This document shows, piece by piece, positions 14,994-25,231 of a DNA stretch of 47,634 bases. A program made the position numbers and the translations under genes. Each line of letters starts with the position of its first letter. Position 1 is the first letter of the stretch. This stretch comes from Pseudomonadota bacterium (GTDB taxonomy: Bacteria > Pseudomonadota > Gammaproteobacteria > Steroidobacterales > Steroidobacteraceae): contig JAJYFF010000018.1 in assembly GCA_021785405.1 (NCBI GenBank), forward strand, positions 1 through 47,634. The letters are read 5' to 3'. The notes beneath the pieces were generated by a model. That model saw only the letters and a list, made by a program, of their open reading frames with translations. It was not told the origin of the DNA and ran no database searches.

Positions 14994-17891
14994 TCAACGC
15001 AGCTCGCCGTCGTTCGCCTCGTACGCTGCGGTCGTGTCGCCGCGCGACGCGGCATAGGCCCGAATGAACCGCTGGAACGCCCGATACCGGCGCGCGCCGC
15101 GGGTTGCGATCCATTCCTGGCGCATCTGCTCCGGCCCGCCGACCTTCAAGATCGAGGTCGGGGAATACCGTTGACCGGCGGCGACGGCCGTCGTCTCGCC
15201 GTGGGGCGCGCGGTGACGTTCCAGCCAGGCCTGCGTGGGCACGTGTCCGGTCGCGCCCGCCTCCCGGCGCAGCAGCCGCTGATCGCTGCAGCGACCGCGA
15301 TTGAATTGCACCGGTACGCGCATCGGCGATACCGGCATCGGATCGAGGCGCGGTGCGGCCCGCCAGATGCCCGCGATCACCTCGGCATTCGCGTCCCACT
15401 GCGACATCGGGGGCAGATCGAAGATGGCCTCGATGCTGCGCACGATGTTCACTTGCGAGAGAGGCTGCGTGTCCAAGGTCCCGGATTTCACCCACGGGCC
15501 CAGCGCGAGACCCAGCGTGCGATGCGCGTCGAGGTGATCGGCCCCGCTCTGCGCGTCGTCCTCGTCGAGGAAGACCGCCATGTGAGCCCACTCGCGGGTA
15601 CCCGCGAGATAGTGCAGCAGTCGCGCGGTCGCGTGGTCGTTGTCGGCGACGTAGTAGTCCGGACTGTAGTAACAGGGGGTCGATCCGGCGGTGTGGTCGT
15701 CGGGGAGCCAAATGAAGACGAAGTGCGGAAACGCCGCGCCGCGATGCGTTCGCAGCCAGGCGATCGCCGCCGCGACCCGGTCGTCGTCCCGGATCATTCG
15801 ATCCCAGCCGGGGTAGGTTCGATCGACGTGCGCGAGCAGGGCGTCGCGGATCACGCCGTCACGCGCGCGCGTCAGGTTCTCGCCGAAGTCCTCGAACGAC
15901 ACGCGATGCGCGAGCAGGTCGTTGAACAGATACAGCCGCTCCGGGTAGCTGATCCACGGGTTCGCGAAAGCGCCCAAGGTCTTGCTCGAATACTCGAACG
16001 GATCATGATGGTCACGCGCGTCGGCGCTCAGCGACCCCGTGCCACCGGGGCCGGCATTCCAATTCAGACCCCGGCGCGAGTAATACTCGGGCCACAGGCG
16101 CTGTACCACGTCGGAGTCCGACGCCCCGTCGGTCCACTGGTGCCCTTGCGCGGTGACTTCGCCGTCCGCCATGAAATTGGCGAACACGGCCTCGGTCGCG
16201 GCCCAATGGTACAGATTCGGCAGCTCCGTCGGCCCGTACAGATCGAAGCGCGGATCGGCCCACCGACCGGCCGCGCGATAGTCCCCGAGGTCCTCGTCGA
16301 AGGTCTTGTTCTCCCGCAGCACGAACACCACGTACTGGATGCGCCGGCGCAGGAACGCGGCGGTGCGCGCATTGCGCGTCGCGAGCGCGCGCCGTTCGGC
16401 GGCGGCGAAGCCGTCGTTCGCGAGCGCCTCGCGCGTCCACTCGGGCAGCGCGCGCTCGAGTCCCTGCAAGGGCACTTTCTGCAGCAAGCCGTGCATCATG
16501 TTGCCGATGTACTGCCAGTGCCGGTTCGGCCCCGTGCCGAATCCTTTCGCGGCGACCACGTACAGCGAGTGACCGGCGATCGTGAGGGCGCTCGGATACC
16601 AGCCGGTCGGAATCAGGCCGAGCGATTTGCCGCTCGCGAAGTCGAATACCGCGACGTCGTCGTTGCCCGCATTCGCGACGAACAGATCGCCGTTCGCGAT
16701 CGCCAAGGCGTCCGGATAGCTCCCGGGGGGCGCGCCGGGATACGGTTCGTCCGCGAGCACGCGCATCGCTTTGAGCGACTGGGTGTCGATCTCGACGAGG
16801 GCGTCCGTATTGGCGTCCGCGACCCACAGACCCGGTCCGTCAGGCGTCGCCACCATCGCGGTGGGGTGCACGCCGGCCGCGACCGTGTGCGGACCCTGAT
16901 CGGGTCCGGTCGGAACGACGCCCAGCACCTTCAGGCTGCGCCGATCCAGGATCGTGACGCCGCGCCCCGCCCAGTTGCTCACCGCGAGGCGGCGCCCCTG
17001 GTCGGCGAGCACCACCGCGAACGGGTAGGGGCCGACGTTCACGTATCGCGTCTCGCCGGTTCGCCGGTCGATGCGCGCCAAGCTGTTCGACAGCAGGCCG
17101 GTCACGTACAGGTAATGGCCCTGCGGACCGACCGCGACCGAGTCCGGGTAGAAGTGATAGGGCTTGGTCCCATGCTCGCCCTGATAGGTATAGGGATACT
17201 GATCGTGCGGAAACGCCTGCCATTGCAATGGATACCGGCGGACGACCGCGATGCGCCCGCCGTCGATCCGCAGCGCCAGGACCTGGTCGGAGTTGCCACC
17301 CGTCGCGTACACGATGCGATCCGCGCTCGCCGCCAATCCCTGGAATAGATCGCTGTGGGATACGACCGTGGTCGGCACGCGTCGCGCGCTCCGGTCGATC
17401 GTCGCGGTCGCCAGCGCTTCGACCCGGCGCCGCGGCGCGGCTTGCGCCGGGGCATACACCGTGCCGCCCGCGCTCGGATGCCGCGGATCGATCGCCTGCG
17501 TGAGCCCGTTGCGCGACGACGAAACCGTCGCGCGGACCGGCGCCGACCGACTGAAGGCGGCCAAGCGCGCTCGTCGCCGCAACTGCCGGTCGTACCACGT
17601 CACCGTCTGGTAAGGCGTCGCGCCATTCGCCAACACCAGCACGTCGCCACCGACGCTCAGCACCCGCGTCGGGAAATTCGGAGTGCTCGCGATCGTCCCC
17701 ACCGGCGCGACGCGCCGCCACGTCGGCAGGACGCCCGTGTACCGCGACCGGACGGCCGCGGTGACGGTGACCGGTTGCGACAGGACGCTCGGCGGTGCGT
17801 GCGTCGGGAGGTCGGCCCCCGCGGGCCGAGCGATCGCCAGTACGAGGCCGAGGAAGCCGGTGGCGCGGCGGACGTGGCGTGGAGTGTTCAT
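14994..17891 (-). CDS. Secreted beta-propeller / phosphoesterase fusion protein
   Basis: A 965-residue protein with a signal peptide (cleavage near AGA-D, residue 26). Residues about 60-480 carry repeated YVTN/YncE-like propeller strands such as GHYLYVTGLLSNSLARIDRR and DGPGLWVADANTDALVEID. Residues about 515-880 form a phosphoesterase/alkaline-phosphatase-like domain: VVFVLRENKTFDEDLGDY, LPDDHTAG and DEDDAQSGADHLDAHR, which supply likely metal ligands. This architecture is known in proteobacteria as a propeller-alkaline phosphatase family. It probably hydrolyses phosphate esters in the periplasm. It diverges from a TonB receptor over a 218-base region that holds a Pho-box-like repeat. The start ATG at 17889-17891 begins the signal peptide; the ribosome binding site is weak. 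Confidence 0.88.
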   Translation of the reverse strand: MNTPRHVRRATGFLGLVLAIARPAGADLPTHAPPSVLSQPVTVTAAVRSRYTGVLPTWRRVAPVGTIASTPNFPTRVLSVGGDVLVLANGATPYQTVTWYDRQLRRRARLAAFSRSAPVRATVSSSRNGLTQAIDPRHPSAGGTVYAPAQAAPRRRVEALATATIDRSARRVPTTVVSHSDLFQGLAASADRIVYATGGNSDQVLALRIDGGRIAVVRRYPLQWQAFPHDQYPYTYQGEHGTKPYHFYPDSVAVGPQGHYLYVTGLLSNSLARIDRRTGETRYVNVGPYPFAVVLADQGRRLAVSNWAGRGVTILDRRSLKVLGVVPTGPDQGPHTVAAGVHPTAMVATPDGPGLWVADANTDALVEIDTQSLKAMRVLADEPYPGAPPGSYPDALAIANGDLFVANAGNDDVAVFDFASGKSLGLIPTGWYPSALTIAGHSLYVVAAKGFGTGPNRHWQYIGNMMHGLLQKVPLQGLERALPEWTREALANDGFAAAERRALATRNARTAAFLRRRIQYVVFVLRENKTFDEDLGDYRAAGRWADPRFDLYGPTELPNLYHWAATEAVFANFMADGEVTAQGHQWTDGASDSDVVQRLWPEYYSRRGLNWNAGPGGTGSLSADARDHHDPFEYSSKTLGAFANPWISYPERLYLFNDLLAHRVSFEDFGENLTRARDGVIRDALLAHVDRTYPGWDRMIRDDDRVAAAIAWLRTHRGAAFPHFVFIWLPDDHTAGSTPCYYSPDYYVADNDHATARLLHYLAGTREWAHMAVFLDEDDAQSGADHLDAHRTLGLALGPWVKSGTLDTQPLSQVNIVRSIEAIFDLPPMSQWDANAEVIAGIWRAAPRLDPMPVSPMRVPVQFNRGRCSDQRLLRREAGATGHVPTQAWLERHRAPHGETTAVAAGQRYSPTSILKVGGPEQMRQEWIATRGARRYRAFQRFIRAYAASRGDTTAAYEANDGELR

Positions 17892-17971
17892 GGCCGTCGA
17901 TTCTAGCTCGCCCCGCGCGACGACAAGCGGGCCGTTCGCGCTCGCGACCGCCCGCGTCGCGAGCGCGTCGA

Positions 17972-17989
17972 CCGTCACGAGACTGTCAC
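17972..17989 (+). promoter_or_regulatory. Pho-box-like direct repeat
   Basis: CCGTCAC, four bases, CTGTCAC: two 7-base direct repeats with an 11-base period, the geometry of a PhoB site (consensus CTGTCAT repeated with a 4-base A/T spacer). The spacer here is GAGA and both units end in C, so the match is partial. It lies in the divergent promoter of the phosphoesterase and TonB receptor genes. Confidence 0.4.
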
Positions 17990-18109
17990 ATCCGGCCGAT
18001 ACCGTACGCGCTTCCTCGCGGACCAGATCCCTCGGCGAGCGGCCCTCGGCCGCGGCCCAGGGCATCGCGGATTTGCGCCGACTTTCGCATCGCTCACAAG
18101 GAATACACC

Positions 18110-20425
18110 ATGCATTCGCCCCGGTACCACGCCCGGTTCGCCTCGCTGTTCGGCCTCGGAGCGCTCGCGCTCGCGCCCACGGGCGTGTTCGCGCAATCGG
18201 CCGCAGCACCGACATCGAATCCGCCGGCGCACGCCCGGACGTCCGCTGCGAACGGCGCGGACACGGCGCTCACCAAGATCCAGGTGATCGCGCGGGAGCT
18301 CTCCTTGACGCAGATCCCGATGTCCTCCGCCTACAGCGAGTCGATGATCGGTTCGTCGGCGATTCGCTTCGCGTCGCCGATGCTCGACGTGCAGGGCCTG
18401 CTCGAGCGCACCCCGTCGGTCAACGTGCGCACGCCGGCGGCGAACGGCGTACGCACCAACATCACGTTCCGCGCCTTCAGCAGCGGCCAGTTCTCGGAAA
18501 CCTTCGACGGGGTGCCGATCAACGATCCGTTCAACGGCGGCACCACCAATTCGGCGTCGACGCGCAACAACATTCCGTTGACCTTGAACGACATCAGCGG
18601 CGTGCACATCTACCGCGGCATCAACAATCCCGCGGTCACCGCGTACAACTCGCTCGGCGGCACGATCGCCTTCGAGCCGCGCGATCCGTCCGTGGCGCCG
18701 GCCGCCACGGTGAGCGCCGGCGGCGGCAGCTTCCACACCGTGTACTACGGATTGACCGCGCAGACCGGCGAGATCGCCGGCGTGCGCAGCATGATCAGCG
18801 TCAACCACAACAGCAGCAGCGGCTGGCAGGCGAACTCCGGCAACCGCAACACCAACCTGTACTACGGCGGCGTGCTGCCCTATGCCGGCGGCGACGGCGA
18901 GGTGTACGCGTACGCGATCTACAACGCCAACAAGGGACTCACGCCGCACACGGCCCCGCTGCCCCTGGTCGAGCAGTACGGGTACGGCTTCGGGTGGCCG
19001 CTCGACTGGACCTACAGCTACAACCAGGACCACGGCGGTACGTACATCCTCGGCGACCGCATGCACGTGAACTCCTGGCTCGCGTTCAACGCGCGGGTGT
19101 ACGCGCGTAACGTCGCCTACGATCGGGTGTCCTACACCAACCCGGCGTTCGCGCAGAGCGCCACCCAACCCTACGCGTTGCCGAACACCGGCGGCCCCGG
19201 CACGAACTACCACAACTATCTCTATGCGACCCATCAGTACGGGGTGATGCCGCATTTCACGCTGACGCTTCCCGACAATCTCGTGAAGTTCGGGGGCGAT
19301 TACTCGCACACGACCCTGCACTCGGCGGAATTCTGGTACGGCAGCTATCCGATGCCGCTGATCACCGGCGCGAGCGCGAACGCGACGGACGCCTGGGACG
19401 AGCACGACGGCCGCACGCTCGGCTCCGCGTTCCTGCAGGACGAGGTGACGCTGCTCGACGGCACGGTGCACGTGACGCCGGGCGTCAAATACCTCTTCGC
19501 GCGCACCTCGGATTTCGACAATCTCGGGATCTTCTACCCGATCAGCGGGACGGTCTCGGACCGGGAGAGTTACACGTCGCCGACGCTCGGCCTCAACTGG
19601 CGGCCGATCCCGCACGTGAGCCTGTACGCCGCTTGGGGCGAGACCGCGAAATTCCCCGGCATCTCCGCGTACTACAACGACGTCGGGCAGACCAACGCGG
19701 CCGGCCAGACCGTGGTCGTTCCGCTGAACGTGAAGCCGGAATACGTCCGCGACATCGAGCTCGGTGCGCGTTACGCGGACCATGGTCTCGCGGTCGCCAT
19801 GAACGTCTACCGGGAGAATTTCTCGAACACGTTCATCCAGAGCACGAACCCGGCGACCCAGTTGTCGAGCACCACCAACGGCGGCAGCTCGCGCTACGAG
19901 GGAGTGGAGATCGACCTGCGCGACGCGTTCGAGACGCCGATCGGTGCCTTCAGCGTGTTCGGCAACTTCTCGCAGAACAAGGCGTACTTCACGTCGAGCT
20001 TCACCGTCGCGAATTCGGCTGGAACCGCCGCGATCGCGGGCCAGTCGGTGAGTTCCGGCGAGCCGCTCGCGGGGGTGCCGAAGACCCTCGGGAACCTCGG
20101 CGTCGGCTGGAAGTGGCGGACATGGCGCGCCGACGTGAGCGAGCACTACGCCGGATCCCAGTACGTCTACGAATACAATGCCGGACTCCCGGGCGCGCAG
20201 ACCATTCCGAGCTATGCGGTGATGAACTTCACGTTGCGTGACACCTTGCCGCTGCGCTGGGGCGCGATCCGGGATCTCAAGCTCGCGCTGCACGTCGACA
20301 ACGTGTTGAACCGGCACTACTACACGTTCGGCTACGGCGACACGACCTACGCGGGAACCTCGTTCGTGCGCGCGATCTACGAAGAGCCGGCCGCGTTCTT
20401 CGGCACGGTCGCGGTGGATTTCTGA
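18110..20425 (+). CDS. TonB-dependent receptor
   Basis: Complete 771-residue outer-membrane receptor. The signal peptide (residues 1-30, cleavage near VFA-Q) is followed by LTKIQVIARE as a TonB-box-like element and a plug with ITFRAFSSGQF, ETFDGVPINDPFN and VHIYRGINNPAVTAYNSLGG. The barrel ends in a terminal Phe (FFGTVAVDF). The VTAYNSLGG plug motif and the fecA-like style differ from the other receptors in the window, so it is a separate subfamily. The start ATG has GGAA 7 bases upstream. The frame is open from 17795, but that upstream part is not signal-like. It diverges from the propeller/phosphoesterase gene, so uptake of phosphate or a phosphorylated compound is a reasonable but untested idea. 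Confidence 0.94.
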   Translation: MHSPRYHARFASLFGLGALALAPTGVFAQSAAAPTSNPPAHARTSAANGADTALTKIQVIARELSLTQIPMSSAYSESMIGSSAIRFASPMLDVQGLLERTPSVNVRTPAANGVRTNITFRAFSSGQFSETFDGVPINDPFNGGTTNSASTRNNIPLTLNDISGVHIYRGINNPAVTAYNSLGGTIAFEPRDPSVAPAATVSAGGGSFHTVYYGLTAQTGEIAGVRSMISVNHNSSSGWQANSGNRNTNLYYGGVLPYAGGDGEVYAYAIYNANKGLTPHTAPLPLVEQYGYGFGWPLDWTYSYNQDHGGTYILGDRMHVNSWLAFNARVYARNVAYDRVSYTNPAFAQSATQPYALPNTGGPGTNYHNYLYATHQYGVMPHFTLTLPDNLVKFGGDYSHTTLHSAEFWYGSYPMPLITGASANATDAWDEHDGRTLGSAFLQDEVTLLDGTVHVTPGVKYLFARTSDFDNLGIFYPISGTVSDRESYTSPTLGLNWRPIPHVSLYAAWGETAKFPGISAYYNDVGQTNAAGQTVVVPLNVKPEYVRDIELGARYADHGLAVAMNVYRENFSNTFIQSTNPATQLSSTTNGGSSRYEGVEIDLRDAFETPIGAFSVFGNFSQNKAYFTSSFTVANSAGTAAIAGQSVSSGEPLAGVPKTLGNLGVGWKWRTWRADVSEHYAGSQYVYEYNAGLPGAQTIPSYAVMNFTLRDTLPLRWGAIRDLKLALHVDNVLNRHYYTFGYGDTTYAGTSFVRAIYEEPAAFFGTVAVDF

Positions 20426-20492: not shown

Positions 20493-21209
20493 TCACGCAG
20501 TCGCGCGCGGGGCGCGGATTTCCGAGATGCGCCGATCGAGGTCGAGCGAGAGGAAGGACGGCACTTCGAGCGCTCGGTCTTCGAGCGCACCGGGGCCGCG
20601 GGCGGCCCGGGCGAACCATGCGTCGTCACGACGCTCGATCAACGCGCGAATCTCCCGGCGGTGGAGCGCGATCACCGACTCGAGCACGGTGTCGATCGCC
20701 GCGTGACCGGTCGACAGACGCAAGGTCTGTAGCAGTGCGATGGTCGCGTTGGCCGATAGCGGGAGGTCGCCGGTGACCCAACGATTCACCGTGAACATCG
20801 AGATCGGCAGGCCGACCGCATTCATTCCGATCGCGAGCAAGTGCCGGGTGTTCGCACGCCGCCGGCGGCACCGCAACCGTCGCAGAAACTGTGATTCCGC
20901 GGGCTCGTCGATCGAGCCTTCCGGCCGAACGAAAAGGTGGAAGTGCCCGTGCTCCGTGGCGCCTGGCCGATCCTCCGGGTCGTGCGAATGGTAGAACCAT
21001 TGGTAGCGGCGGGTCGCGTCGATCGCGTCGTCCGCCGGATAGTGCTGCCACTGGACCGGCGGTTTGCCGTCCAGCAGCGAGGCGAGCAAGTGGCGTTCGT
21101 CCCGGGCGAGTCGCGCATAGCATGCGATGAGGTGGTCGGCGGCGCGCCGCGGGCCGAGGGTTCGTGCGCGGGAGTTCGCGGGTCGCTCGAGCGTTCGCCG
21201 CACGGTCAT
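20493..21209 (-). CDS. His-rich protein, resembles DUF6969
   Basis: A 238-residue soluble protein without signal peptide. Its notable feature is a histidine cluster: YHSHD (H74, H76) and EHGHFHLF (H87, H89, H91), followed by HLLAIGMNAVGLP and TVNRWVTGD. I recall this pattern from proteins annotated as DUF6969, whose function is unknown; that assignment is from memory. The clustered histidines would suit a bound metal. An Arg-rich patch (residues 111-118) interrupts the middle. The ATG overlaps the stop of the DoxX gene (ATGA), making it the last gene of the bufferin-like operon. It occupies a position where related clusters have DUF692 and DUF2063 maturation genes, so an enzymatic or metal-delivery role on the peptides is possible (inference). 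Confidence 0.75.
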   Translation of the reverse strand: MTVRRTLERPANSRARTLGPRRAADHLIACYARLARDERHLLASLLDGKPPVQWQHYPADDAIDATRRYQWFYHSHDPEDRPGATEHGHFHLFVRPEGSIDEPAESQFLRRLRCRRRRANTRHLLAIGMNAVGLPISMFTVNRWVTGDLPLSANATIALLQTLRLSTGHAAIDTVLESVIALHRREIRALIERRDDAWFARAARGPGALEDRALEVPSFLSLDLDRRISEIRAPRATA

Positions 21210-21700
21210 CGGGCGCGCCGCGCACGCACGAACAGGTGCCGCAACACGGCGTCGATCGAAAAAGTGCCCGGGCCTCGGGCGATCACCGCGAGGAGCATGA
21301 TCGCCCACACCTTGTGGTCGAGAAAGTCGTTGCCGACGAGCCCGTGCCAGAAGCCGTGTGGCCACAAGTCCGGATAGGAAATGACCGCGATGACGTTGTA
21401 GACGAACAAGAACGCGGCGGTGGGCCGGGCAAGCAGACCGAATCCAAGCAGCCAAGGCGTGATCAGCTCGACCGAGGTTCCGAGGAAGGCCGCGACCGGC
21501 GGAGGCAACACCGGCACGCGGTAGACGGTGCTGAACAGCATCGCCGTGCCGCTCGGATCGTCGAACTTGACGACGCCGGCGCGCCAGAAGGCGAGCGCGA
21601 CCCAGAGGCGCATCATCAGCAGCGTGGGGGGATCCACGCGTACCAAGGATGCGCTCAGGCGATCGTAGAGCGATACGCATCGATCGATCTCGGGCTTCAT
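21206..21700 (-). CDS. DoxX-family membrane protein
   Basis: A 164-residue inner-membrane protein with four hydrophobic helices (about residues 28-45, 65-85, 90-110 and 125-145). LWVALAFWRAGVVKFDDP and VAAFLGTSVELITPWLLGFGLLARP are typical of DoxX/DoxD proteins. In bufferin clusters a DoxX protein (BufD) accompanies the precursor peptide. The start at 21698-21700 has GAGGAG 8 bases upstream; a 14-residue longer version is possible but lacks support. It is followed by the His-rich gene with a 4-base overlap and preceded by the BufA1-like gene with a 45-base gap. Confidence 0.88.
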   Translation of the reverse strand: MKPEIDRCVSLYDRLSASLVRVDPPTLLMMRLWVALAFWRAGVVKFDDPSGTAMLFSTVYRVPVLPPPVAAFLGTSVELITPWLLGFGLLARPTAAFLFVYNVIAVISYPDLWPHGFWHGLVGNDFLDHKVWAIMLLAVIARGPGTFSIDAVLRHLFVRARRAR

Positions 21701-21745
21701 GGCAAGCGCTCCTCTGCGCGGTGCCGACGCGGTCTGCGGCAAGGG

Positions 21746-22018
21746 TCAGCCCTTGTGAGGCTTCGTCGAACCGCCGGCGATCTTCGCGCACAGTCCCGCG
21801 GGCACCATCACGAAGGCGCCCGGGTCGCGTGCCTTCGCGTCCTGGCCCGCGCAGGAATGGCCCGGCGACATGCAATCGTTCTTGTGGGCGGCGTTGATCC
21901 CATAGCACTTCACCATCGCCGGGGCATTCGCCGCCTGCACGGTGGTTGCGCCGATCGCGCCGACCCCGACCGTCAGCGCGCTGATCAGGGCGACACGCAA
22001 GGTTTGTTGCTTCGTCAT
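21746..22018 (-). CDS. DUF2282 / BufA1-like secreted peptide (bufferin precursor)
   Basis: A 90-residue precursor with a signal peptide (residues 1-29, cleavage near VQA-A) and a mature part with four cysteines at 38, 49, 56 and 77: VKCYGINAAHKNDC, SCAGQ and VPAGLCAKIAGGS. This is the DUF2282 signature. Members studied as bufferins bind copper after their cysteines are converted to thiooxazole-type heterocycles by a DUF692 (MNIO) enzyme with a DUF2063 partner. Those two genes are absent here. The start has AGGAG 7 bases upstream. It sits 31 bases downstream of a second Cys-rich peptide gene and upstream of DoxX; an ECF sigma gene diverges from the cluster. Confidence 0.9.
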   Translation of the reverse strand: MTKQQTLRVALISALTVGVGAIGATTVQAANAPAMVKCYGINAAHKNDCMSPGHSCAGQDAKARDPGAFVMVPAGLCAKIAGGSTKPHKG

Positions 22019-22049
22019 GAATGGCTCCTGTGGCTGTGGTGGGTGGCGC

Positions 22050-22289
22050 TCAACGCGTGCCGCACTTGCCGGCACACTTCTTCTTCGTGCCGCACTTGCC
22101 GGCGCACTTCGACATCTTCTTGTGCGCGTGGCCCGCACACCGGCCCGCGCATGCGCCGGCGCATTTGCCCATCGATTGGCTGGATGCGCAGGCCGCGGCC
22201 GCAGGGGCCGTTCCGGCGATCGCGAGCGGCAGGGCCATCGTGGTCGCGGTCAACGCGGCGAGTACGAAACGTGAATAACGGGTGGACAT
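22050..22289 (-). CDS. Small secreted Cys/Lys-rich repeat peptide
   Basis: A 79-residue peptide with a signal sequence (residues 1-32, Ala-rich end) and eight cysteines at 34, 43, 47, 51, 62, 66, 72 and 76. From residue 42 the pattern is C-A-G-x-C repeated with 4-residue spacing, ending in two copies of KCAGKCGT. This resembles the low-complexity KCG-type precursor peptides associated with MNIO enzymes (HvfA-like), but I cannot assign it to a named family. Likely secreted and metal-binding. The ATG at 22287-22289 has GGAG about 4 bases upstream. It is the first gene of the operon with the BufA1-like peptide, DoxX and the His-rich protein. Confidence 0.8.
   Translation of the reverse strand: MSTRYSRFVLAALTATTMALPLAIAGTAPAAAACASSQSMGKCAGACAGRCAGHAHKKMSKCAGKCGTKKKCAGKCGTR
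22056..22110. repeat. 30-base-period direct repeat inside the Cys-rich peptide gene
   Basis: Bases 22056-22080 recur at 22086-22110 with a single mismatch (22074 against 22104). Each copy encodes a KCAGKCGT module. The near identity at the DNA level suggests a recent duplication of the metal-binding module. Confidence 0.85.
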
Positions 22290-22336
22290 GGAGGCTCCTC
22301 ATGGAATCGGTGCTCAGTTGTGGTCGTGCCTGTTGG

Positions 22337-22352
22337 AGCGCAAAATTGCGCT
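22337..22352. promoter_or_regulatory. Inverted repeat in the divergent peptide/sigma promoter
   Basis: AGCGCAA and its complement TTGCGCT are separated by AA in the 144-base gap between the Cys-rich peptide operon and the ECF sigma gene. It could be an operator for a dimeric regulator or a small hairpin in the peptide leader. No ECF promoter could be assigned with confidence. Confidence 0.35.
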
Positions 22353-22433
22353 GCCTTGGATGAGAGGCGGGGTTGCGGGACGAGGATTCGCCGCCCGCCG
22401 ATATTTTTTGGCCGGTGGCGGCTGGATGGACGG

Positions 22434-22970
22434 ATGACCGCGGAACGACAGCAGCTCATTGGCGCGGCGCAAGGCGGCGACGCGACGGCGCTCAATCGGT
22501 TGTTGACCACCTGCCAAGTCGACGCGCGGCGCTATGCGCGGCGCCATTGCCAGGTCAGCGACGTCGACGACGCCGTGCAGGAGACGCTGTGGATCCTCGC
22601 CCGACGGATCCAGGGTCTGAAGGCCGCGGCGGCGTTCTCCAGCTGGCTGTTCACGGTCGTACGTCGCGAATGCCTGCGGCTCGAACGACGCATGCGCGGT
22701 CTCGGGCCCTCGGTCGACGAACTGGCCGAGGAACAGTTACAGCATCGCGATTCGGTCGACCTGCGCGCGGATCTGATCGCCGGAATCGAGTCGTTGCCCG
22801 CGCACTATCGCGAGATCATCCTGTTGCGGGACTTCGAGCAGATGACGATCGCGGAGATCGCGGCGCGCCTCGGTCTCGAGGTCCCCGCGGCGAAGAGCCG
22901 TCTGCACCGGGCCCGCGAGCAGCTGCGGACATTCCTGCTGGCCGGGCCGGCATCGGCGCCCGTCCCCTGA
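22434..22970 (+). CDS. ECF-type RNA polymerase sigma factor
   Basis: A 178-residue sigma-70 family protein of the extracytoplasmic-function class. Region 2 covers about residues 20-85 (DVDDAVQETLWILARR, FSSWLFTVVRREC), a variable linker follows, and region 4 spans about 110-170 (LPAHYREIILLRDFEQMTIAEI, AAKSRLHRAREQLR). It directs polymerase to stress-type promoters. The frame is open 38 codons upstream, but family similarity begins at this ATG. No anti-sigma gene follows. It diverges from the Cys-rich peptide operon, and bufferin operons are often driven by ECF sigma factors, so it is the likely regulator of that operon (inference). Confidence 0.93.
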   Translation: MTAERQQLIGAAQGGDATALNRLLTTCQVDARRYARRHCQVSDVDDAVQETLWILARRIQGLKAAAAFSSWLFTVVRRECLRLERRMRGLGPSVDELAEEQLQHRDSVDLRADLIAGIESLPAHYREIILLRDFEQMTIAEIAARLGLEVPAAKSRLHRAREQLRTFLLAGPASAPVP

Positions 22971-23086: not shown

Positions 23087-25231
23087 ATGATCTCGAAGTC
23101 CACGCTGGGTAAGGCTCTCCTGCTCCTCGTCCTCGCCGGGGTCCTCGGCGTGTCCGTGCGCGTCGGCCTGCACGGATCCGGGGCGCTCGGCGCGGTCCGC
23201 TCGCATCTGCACGCCCTCGGCGTGCTGCGGACCGCGCATCCCGTGCTGCTCGCGTCCGGCTTCTTCACGGCCTACGTGCTGGCCACGGCGGCCTCGCTGC
23301 CGATCGCGACGGCGTTGACCTTGCTCGCGGGTGCGCTGTTCGGCGTGCTGGAGGGCACCCTGATCGTCTCCTTTGCGTCGAGTCTCGGCGCGTTGCTCGC
23401 CTTCCTCGCCGCACGCACCGTGTTTCGAGACGCGGCGGAACGACGATTCGGGTCGCGCCTGCGCGCGATCAACCGCGGGCTCGCGCGCGAGGGCGGCGTG
23501 TACCTGTTCGGTCTGCGGATGGTGCCGGTGATCCCGTTCTTCGCGGTGAACCTCGCGATGGGCTTGACCTCGATGGCCGCCGGCACCTTCTACTGGGTCA
23601 GTCAGGTGGGAATGCTTCCCGCCACGCTGATCTACGTCAACGCCGGCACCCGTCTCGCGAGCCTCGGGGGGGTGCGCGGGATCGTCTCGCCCGCCGTGGC
23701 CGGATCGCTCGCGTTGCTCGGCGTCTTTCCGTGGCTCGCCCGCCGCGTCGCTACGCGCGTGAAGGCGCGCCGGATCCAGGGACGCTGGCCTCGTCCGCCG
23801 CGATTCGATCGGAACCTGGTCGTGATCGGCGCGGGCTCGGCCGGCCTCGTGAGCGCGTACATCGCCGCGACGGTGCGCGCGAAGGTCACGCTGATCGAAG
23901 GCGAGCGCATGGGCGGGGATTGCCTGAACACCGGCTGCGTTCCCTCGAAGGCGTTGATCCATGCGGCGCGGCTCGCGGCGGCGGCGCGCGCCGCGGCGGC
24001 GGTCGGGGTGAGTCTCGGCGAGCCCCGGGTCGACTTTCGCGCGGTGATGGACGGCGTGCACCGCGCGATCGCGCAAGTCGCGCCGCACGATTCGGTCGAA
24101 CGATACCGCGAGCTCGGCGTCGACGTGCGTCGCGGGCATGCGACGATCCGGTCGCCGTGGCTCGTCGAGGTCGGCGGCGAGGCGATCACGACGCGCGCGA
24201 TCATCGTCGCGACCGGCGCCGAGCCGATCGTGCCGGATCTGCCGGGACTCGGCGCGGAGGACTACCTGACGTCCGAAACGCTGTGGTCGCTGCAGGAACT
24301 CCCGCGGCGGCTCGTCGTGCTGGGCGGCGGGCCGATCGGTTGCGAACTCGCCCAGGCGTTCGCGCGCCTCGGCTCCCGCGTCACGCTGCTGCAGCGGGGA
24401 GCCCATGTGCTCACCCGCGAGGATCCGGTCGTCGGGGCGTTCGTCCAAGCGCGACTCGCGGCCGACGGCGTCGACGTGCGCACCGGCAGCCGGCCGGTCC
24501 GGGTCGAGCGCAGCGCCGGGGGCCGGGAACTCGTCGCGGACGTGCTGGGCGAGGCGACGCGGCTGCCGTACGATGCCTTGCTGATCGCGCTCGGCCGGCG
24601 GCCTCGCACGCGGGGATTCGGGCTCGAGGCGCTCGGGATCACGGCGGCACCGACGGTCGAGACCGATGAATACCTCGCGACCTTGCATCCGAACATCTAT
24701 GCCTGCGGCGACGTCGCCGGACCTCATCAATTCACGCACGCGGCGGCCCAGCAAGCGTGGGTTGCGGCGGTGAACGCGCTGTTCGGCGGTCTCCGGCGGT
24801 TCCGTGCGGACGACTCGGTGATGCCCGCGGTGACCTTCGTCGACCCGGAGGTGGCCCGGGTCGGCCACAACGAAACCAGCGCGCGCGCGGCCGGAATCGA
24901 CTACGAACTCACCGAGTACGATCTGGCGGATCTCGACCGGGCGATCGCGGAGCATCGTGCGACCGGGTTCGTCCGGGTGCTGACCGTGCCTGGCAAGGAT
25001 CGCATCCTCGGCGTGACGATCGTCGGCCATCGAGCCGGCGAATGTCTCGCCGAATTCACGCTCGCGATGCGCGAGGGCCTCGGCCTGGGTCGAATCCTGC
25101 GCACGATCCATCCGTATCCGACCTGGTCGGAGGCGAACAAGTACGCCGCCGGCGCCTGGCGCAAGCGACACGCGCCCGAGCGGATCTTGCGCATGATGCA
25201 GCGCTACCACGCGTGGCGATTGCGCGGCTGA
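23087..25231 (+). CDS. TVP38/TMEM64 membrane domain fused to FAD-dependent disulfide reductase
   Basis: A 714-residue fusion. Residues 1-235 are a TVP38/TMEM64 (DedA-like) integral membrane domain with several helices and GLRMVPVIPFFAVNLAMG. From about residue 240 it is a class I pyridine-nucleotide disulfide oxidoreductase: FAD-binding VVIGAGSAG, redox cysteines C279 and C284 in GGDCLNTGCVPSK, an NADPH-binding VLGGGPIGCELAQAF, YACGDVAGPHQFTHAA, and the C-terminal catalytic H675 in IHPYPTWSEA. It is most like mercuric-reductase-type paralogues but has no N-terminal metal-binding domain or C-terminal vicinal cysteines. The fusion is known in proteobacteria with unclear function. It lies 14 bases ahead of the ABC transporter operon. 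Confidence 0.93.
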   Translation: MISKSTLGKALLLLVLAGVLGVSVRVGLHGSGALGAVRSHLHALGVLRTAHPVLLASGFFTAYVLATAASLPIATALTLLAGALFGVLEGTLIVSFASSLGALLAFLAARTVFRDAAERRFGSRLRAINRGLAREGGVYLFGLRMVPVIPFFAVNLAMGLTSMAAGTFYWVSQVGMLPATLIYVNAGTRLASLGGVRGIVSPAVAGSLALLGVFPWLARRVATRVKARRIQGRWPRPPRFDRNLVVIGAGSAGLVSAYIAATVRAKVTLIEGERMGGDCLNTGCVPSKALIHAARLAAAARAAAAVGVSLGEPRVDFRAVMDGVHRAIAQVAPHDSVERYRELGVDVRRGHATIRSPWLVEVGGEAITTRAIIVATGAEPIVPDLPGLGAEDYLTSETLWSLQELPRRLVVLGGGPIGCELAQAFARLGSRVTLLQRGAHVLTREDPVVGAFVQARLAADGVDVRTGSRPVRVERSAGGRELVADVLGEATRLPYDALLIALGRRPRTRGFGLEALGITAAPTVETDEYLATLHPNIYACGDVAGPHQFTHAAAQQAWVAAVNALFGGLRRFRADDSVMPAVTFVDPEVARVGHNETSARAAGIDYELTEYDLADLDRAIAEHRATGFVRVLTVPGKDRILGVTIVGHRAGECLAEFTLAMREGLGLGRILRTIHPYPTWSEANKYAAGAWRKRHAPERILRMMQRYHAWRLRG

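Follow-up and report, generated by a model that had tools for sequence, protein, structure and literature searches.

The family DUF6969 (PF22308) is a conserved genomic neighbor of low-complexity, signal-like Cys-repeat peptides in Pseudomonadota, independently of the maturase MNIO (DUF692), and has the same status for Cys repeats fused to c-type and P460 cytochromes. Our reference point is a minus-strand operon at 22289-20493 of contig JAJYFF010000018.1 from a member of the Steroidobacteraceae, of which a stretch of 47,634 nucleotides (the window) was analyzed. It comprises four genes, all confirmed, in the order KC-repeat peptide (KC peptide), DUF2282 peptide, DoxX and DUF6969 (Table 1). On balance we lean toward DUF6969 being a cytosolic, metal-dependent maturation factor for Cys-repeat peptides, for which we only infer a covalent chemistry.

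Counting the window genome, DUF6969 was recovered in four of 60 relatives and in 20 of 398 genomes of the phylum; a survey of 150 genomes from one family yielded it in 10, three of which also belong to the phylum sample. The 112 loci compared here include the best 80 of 554 relatives from a scan of genome contigs, lean to the clade of the window and contain near-duplicates (the tree shows L018/L019 and L084/L130 as identical). Peptides were called by fixed criteria: a signal-like N-terminus, at least 5 Cys in 50 residues, and one Cys-containing tripeptide present at least three times; these were broadened once, to admit fusions, and the flanks of 16 loci were extended. Such a peptide lies within 2.5 kb of DUF6969 at 66 of the 112 loci (58 within 1.5 kb under the earlier, narrower criteria), and at 41 loci the nearest one is stand-alone, upstream and on the same strand. 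When only the 73 loci with full flanks are considered, 44 are positive, versus 1/73 on reversed sequences, and a peptide within 500 bp is seen at 31/69 loci versus a mean of 8.3 and a maximum of 17 for random placement (500 draws). Additions by eye, namely L022, L072, L128 and eight loci of genus g63 with 4-Cys NPCGPKK peptides, bring the count to 77/112; at L068 and L083 the nearest matches to the criteria are antisense open reading frames (ORFs), and true sense-strand NPC peptides are present there. The peptides fall into KC, NPC, CNPC, CGAC and CAA motif classes, with repeats in the inspected neighborhoods such as KCGAKCAPKC, CNPCNPCAAKK, NPCAAKNPCAAK, CGACGAC and CCAAEGC, and reach 18 Cys in 50 residues; no NCBIfam precursor model matched ten peptides other than that of the window at E <= 0.01. 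Beside DUF6969 the repeats are also fused to cytochrome P460 (PF16694; L038:342-1436, L040:4689-5762, L067:3284-4432) and to a SoxA/TsdA-type cytochrome c domain (PF21342; L020:5168-5950, L129:6768-7613).

The association is also recovered from the side of the peptides. The strict pattern NPC[AG][AG]KNPC occurs in seven of the 398 genomes, six of which carry DUF6969 versus 20/398 overall (Fisher p = 5e-8); the seventh, in which no DUF6969 was found, is 67% complete. The reversed pattern had no match among the matches listed. The looser NPC[AG][AG]K was sought in 37 genomes, picked mostly for having no adjacent peptide seen, and is present in 18 of them: nine with 5 to 31 matches, three with 2 or 3 and six with one, compared with one match each in three of the 37 for the reversed control. 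In the genome G628 these matches sit in a fused gene at the DUF6969 locus itself.

Peptide motif type tracks the DUF6969 phylogeny. On a quick tree of 112 rows with long branches flagged, 73 rows were labeled by a motif-counting rule (labels for L022, L072 and the eight g63 loci were assigned manually, and all of these except L022 were checked later). The type changes 14 times, versus 30 to 39 times in 200 shuffles; changes observed versus expected are 2 versus 16.2 for KC, 10 versus 24.3 for NPC and 7 versus 13.9 for CNPC. The CGAC type is unclustered, with its five rows requiring 5 changes. The main KC clade, in which the window and L127 are sisters (SH-aLRT 97), leaves out four KC rows (L033, L055, L104, L131). 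At four loci of the KC clade (L005, L010, L014, L016; Pfam tested for L005 and L014) methyltransferase genes lie near DUF6969, with a radical S-adenosylmethionine gene in L005; we take these genes to resemble those of arsenic metabolism. The signal region of the peptides carries AALT in 15/18 KC, 3/16 NPC, 2/11 CNPC and 0/9 of the remaining cases (20/54 over all types), compared with 3/299 background N-termini. The KC-type AALT would fit recognition of a leader, and the signal has been proposed as the recognition element for bufferins (PMC12452194). In the neighborhoods, in the NPC-bearing genomes and on the tree, the co-occurrence with such peptides elsewhere on which a sequence-only reading of the window had staked its proposal is thus borne out.

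The linkage does not run through MNIO. Across the 398 genomes MNIO is found in 144, DUF6969 in 20 and both in 10, with no association (p = 0.23), and MNIO was detected at seven of the 112 DUF6969 loci (with one query sequence; 22 of the loci are shorter than 6 kb, and some may be missed). A role of DUF6969 as an accessory of MNIO systems was rejected on these grounds. Of 21 near-complete genomes with DUF6969 (at least 90% complete, at most 5% contamination, the window genome counted), 11 are without MNIO. The remaining neighbors, counted over 104 loci by clustering the sequences and naming each cluster after the Pfam match of one representative, with no background rate, include FGE-sulfatase-type (23), DsbD_TM (11), Sulf_transp (11), thioredoxin (10), rhodanese (9) and NrsF (7) proteins, which suggests a periplasmic metal and thiol setting. 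A further cluster, present at 10 of the 104 loci, is a 168-residue protein with a signal-like start and no Pfam match (L026:1932-2438 and similar).

All 98 members of the DUF6969 alignment match PF22308, the match of the window protein being nearly full-length. Six positions (H74, H76, H89, H91, N142, R194) are invariant in all 98 sequences, and H56, D61, D64, E86, H87, H123, W144 and D195 are nearly so. The histidine cluster reported by the sequence-only reading (H74, H76, H87, H89, H91) is therefore in place and conserved, four of its members being invariant and H87 present in at least 90%. The invariant residues look like a catalytic or metal site. An AlphaFold2 model of the protein is confident (pLDDT 93.4, pTM 0.89); a Foldseek search of it against the PDB gave no match at E <= 0.001 (best E 0.89), viral models likewise gave none, and a profile search against PDB sequences was also without a match (best E 0.24). 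Weak second Pfam matches, e.g. to GGACT, concern three of the 98 members (best E 0.006) and were not believed. By a hydropathy threshold seven of 103 members have a signal-like N-terminus, that of the genome G022 among them, and in these the hydrophobic stretch lies in or beside the first helix of the domain. Since most members have no signal-like N-terminus, DUF6969 probably acts before export. In a SAR324 protein (L047:5131-6588) the whole domain appears, by eye from the translation, to be duplicated in tandem. Pfam describes no function for PF22308, and a literature search, which left most subscription journals outside its reach, found no relevant paper on DUF6969/PF22308 or on the NPCAAK, NPCNPC and AKCGAKC motifs.

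From these features a mechanism may be sketched. DUF6969 would bind the precursor, probably via its signal or leader region, hold a metal by means of its conserved His/Glu/Asp residues and, ahead of export, work on the repeated Cys; once exported, the peptides would serve as periplasmic buffers for copper or another soft metal, with DoxX sitting in the membrane and the extracytoplasmic function (ECF) sigma factor putatively controlling the system. In the window operon the KC peptide would be the native client, and the DUF2282 peptide would stem from a bufferin cluster from which MNIO and DUF2063 have been lost, being now either served by DUF6969 or working unmodified.

That the four window genes form a single operon is judged from their layout, because gaps of 31 nucleotides (KC peptide/DUF2282) and 45 nucleotides (DUF2282/DoxX) separate the first three and the DUF6969 start overlaps the DoxX stop by 4 nucleotides; GGAG sites precede the starts of the KC peptide, DUF2282 and DoxX genes. 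The gene order facing an ECF sigma factor is as given in the sequence-only reading, and every family of the operon and the ECF factor scores above its Pfam cut-off except the KC peptide. For the latter no Pfam or NCBIfam model scored above cut-off, the nearest being TIGR04117 (16.6 bits vs 50); the HvfX model on DoxX (48 bits) and the BufA2 model NF050166 on the DUF2282 peptide (29.2 bits) fall under their cut-offs of 80 and 60 (curated), respectively. The signal of the KC peptide was called from hydropathy, and that of the DUF2282 peptide from visual inspection. G022 (L003/L127) has an operon of identical gene content and order, which rules out a one-off arrangement or an assembly artefact. 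The ECF factor of L127 is 85% identical and occupies the same divergent place, and the two sequence blocks given in Table 1 are kept between the window and L127 in an alignment of these two sequences only; they are a candidate ECF-type promoter, and a sigma-70 promoter scan found none.

Table 1. Features of the DUF6969 operon and its surroundings in the window.
Feature	Coordinates	Strand	Basis and remarks
KC-repeat exported peptide (putative)	22050..22289	-	79 aa, 8 Cys; KCAGKCG/GKCGT repeats; signal-like N-terminus with AALT; translation, hydropathy and Cys-repeat criteria
DUF2282 (BufA1-type) exported peptide (putative)	21746..22018	-	90 aa, four Cys; PF10048, 68.3 bits (cut-off 22.4)
DoxX-family membrane protein	21206..21700	-	PF07681, 53.4 bits (cut-off 23.6)
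DUF6969 protein	20493..21209	-	238 aa, no signal-like N-terminus; conserved HxH and EHGHFH motifs; PF22308, 185.2 bits (cut-off 27)
Divergent intergenic region, candidate ECF-type promoter	22290..22433	.	blocks CGGCGAATCC and CCCCGCCTCTCAT in common with L127
ECF sigma factor, divergent from operon	22434..22970	+	Sigma70_r2; Sigma70_r4_2, 60.7 bits (cut-off 25.7)
VTT-domain/pyridine-nucleotide-disulphide oxidoreductase fusion	23087-25231		next after ECF gene
TonB receptor	17795-20425		ORF; convergent, other flank of operon

The window genome (2.92 Mb in 133 contigs, 96.35% complete, 0.82% contaminated) gave no match to MNIO (PF05114), DUF2063 (PF09836) or YcaO (PF02624) at E <= 0.001, with about 4% of it possibly missing, and the same searches recovered the three families in 2, 1 and 5 of 14 control genomes, respectively. 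The absence of DUF692 and DUF2063 noted in the sequence-only reading therefore extends to the whole genome, and its option of a maturase encoded elsewhere is nearly excluded; an MNIO gene elsewhere in the genome was rejected for want of any MNIO or DUF2063 match, and a YcaO in its place, as in a YcaO-dependent azoline peptide system, for want of any YcaO match. Going by Table 3 of the bufferin survey (PMC12452194), a DUF2282 gene without MNIO is a rare situation, since only 21 of the 4,072 DUF2282-bearing assembled genomes there are devoid of MNIO. Across 23 genomes of the window genus we found 15 DUF2282 loci in 13 genomes, and in 13 of these loci MNIO directly follows DUF2282; the two MNIO-less loci (the window and contig 23 of G022) are exactly those with DUF6969 in the operon (p = 0.0095, with two cases only). 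The window DUF2282 peptide retains all four Cys; its identity to the 13 MNIO-linked copies is 72-79% for four of them (L144, L145, L146, L148) and 38-65% for the others. The ratio of non-synonymous to synonymous substitution rates (dN/dS) of its gene is 0.155 versus L127, which rules out a decaying gene, and 0.21-0.26 versus five MNIO-linked genes; the corresponding values versus L127 are 0.157 for the KC peptide, 0.208 for DoxX and 0.245 for DUF6969 (on 208 aligned residues), all from pairwise comparisons with a dS of about 1 to 1.5. All four genes are thus constrained. At the Rhodanobacter locus L007 and at L008 a KC peptide/DUF6969 pair adjoins an intact DUF2282-MNIO-DUF2063-DoxX cluster; therefore the window operon reads as a fusion of both systems minus MNIO and DUF2063. 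The presence of two precursor types in one operon, which had been singled out as unusual, becomes less odd beside the L007 arrangement and the tandem precursor genes reported in section 14 of the survey (PMC12452194). The genes on both flanks had been taken as unrelated to the operon, which is only half right: on the ECF side L007 has counterparts of both the ECF factor (47% identical) and the VTT/oxidoreductase fusion (67% identical over 713 residues).

Bufferin (Buf1/DUF2282) clusters, as described in that survey (PMC12452194), consist of DUF2282-MNIO-DUF2063-DoxX with an ECF sigma factor. The window shares with them the four-Cys DUF2282 precursor, DoxX and the ECF factor; it differs in lacking MNIO and DUF2063, none being found in the genome either, and in adding the KC peptide and DUF6969. 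The KC peptide, which carries GKCGT twice, falls by its motif in the published Lys-Cys precursor group of the captophorins (fontiphorin, oxazolin), with which it shares the Lys-Cys repeats and a signal-like N-terminus; the common repeat 5-mers tested for captophorin clusters include AKCGA and GKCGT (PMC13097082, section 13). Unlike that group, whose repeats are given as EGKCG, AKCGA and GKCGT (PMC13097082), the window has no MNIO-PME1 and no EGKCG, and its partner is DUF6969. The operon would work by analogy with a bufferin/captophorin cluster, with Cys-rich precursors and a cytosolic partner beside DoxX and an ECF factor. A precursor with a signal-like N-terminus and an adjacent DoxX are present, and MNIO and DUF2063/PME1 are absent; because MNIO and PME1 are absent, the operon is not a member of the MNIO-dependent bufferin/captophorin class.

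Several observations weigh against a maturation role. No recognizable Cys-repeat peptide lies near DUF6969 at 35 of the 112 loci, and 19 of the 37 pattern-searched genomes, including the window genome and G022 (which are of KC type), have no match to the NPC pattern, the only motif type searched. The sharing of AALT may be plain common descent. No enzyme fold can be assigned, and because neither Foldseek nor sequence searches found a match in the PDB, the term 'enzyme' draws on conservation only. The argument from MNIO loss comes from two loci within a single genus. Two MNIO genes lie on other contigs of G022, the first accompanied by a DUF2282 gene of its own and the second at the end of its contig, so that modification in trans is possible there. 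Finally, DUF6969 is not a simple replacement of MNIO, since the two coexist in L007 and L008.

The strongest competing account, which we regard as rather unlikely, makes DUF6969 a dedicated non-covalent handler: a cytosolic chaperone, thiol guard, metal-delivery or export-targeting factor whose task would be to keep the peptides unfolded or to load metal onto them. It would account just as well for the association and for the conserved histidines, peptides with so many Cys may need protection in the cytosol, and the DsbD_TM, thioredoxin and rhodanese neighbors counted above would suit it; however, the invariant N142 and R194 together with the nearly invariant D61, D64, W144 and D195 look more like an active site than like a binding surface, and in the known case of a partner for exported Cys-rich precursors, that of MNIO with DUF2063, the partner acts as a modifying enzyme. 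It is improbable, in our estimate, that the peptides are unmodified, exported metallothionein-like metal buffers, with DUF6969 serving as metal sensor or accessory factor and the DUF2282 peptide as a remnant of a bufferin cluster since lost: purifying selection on the DUF2282 gene, retention of its four Cys and the presence of DUF6969 at both MNIO-less loci of the genus speak against this, even with the standalone precursor genes (section 14) and the MNIO-less DUF2282 genomes (Table 3) reported in the survey (PMC12452194) in its favor. That MNIO and DUF2063 reside in the unassembled part of the window genome and serve the peptides in trans appears very improbable; the fragmented, incomplete assembly and the MNIO genes of G022, which has the same operon, leave room for it, but neither family was found in the window genome, itself one of the 11 near-complete genomes with DUF6969 and no MNIO. 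Of the options raised by the sequence-only reading, an unrecognized modification or metal-delivery factor is favored, and it is possible that the peptides, especially the DUF2282 peptide, work unmodified. Beyond the maturation factor to which we lean, we put forward more tentatively, as a possibility short of even chances, that DUF6969 represents a new class of peptide maturase, its fold finding no PDB counterpart by Foldseek, which modifies exported Cys-repeat peptides and cytochrome-fused tails across Pseudomonadota and which, in the window genus, displaced MNIO-DUF2063 from a bufferin operon and took over the DUF2282 substrate.

The occurrence of DUF6969 beside diverse Cys-repeat peptides points to an unexplored maturation or handling system, and many signal-like Cys-repeat peptides are part of a system independent of MNIO. 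An uncharacterized family, found in 20 of the 398 sampled genomes of the phylum, the window genome included, thereby gains a concrete, testable role. The window operon, in which DUF6969 takes the position of MNIO next to a DUF2282 precursor that has hardly changed, allows the two systems to be compared readily. Should DUF6969 prove to be an enzyme, it would be a new maturase of ribosomally synthesized and post-translationally modified peptides with a new chemistry, and would provide a second, unrelated route to making or loading periplasmic metal-binding peptides.

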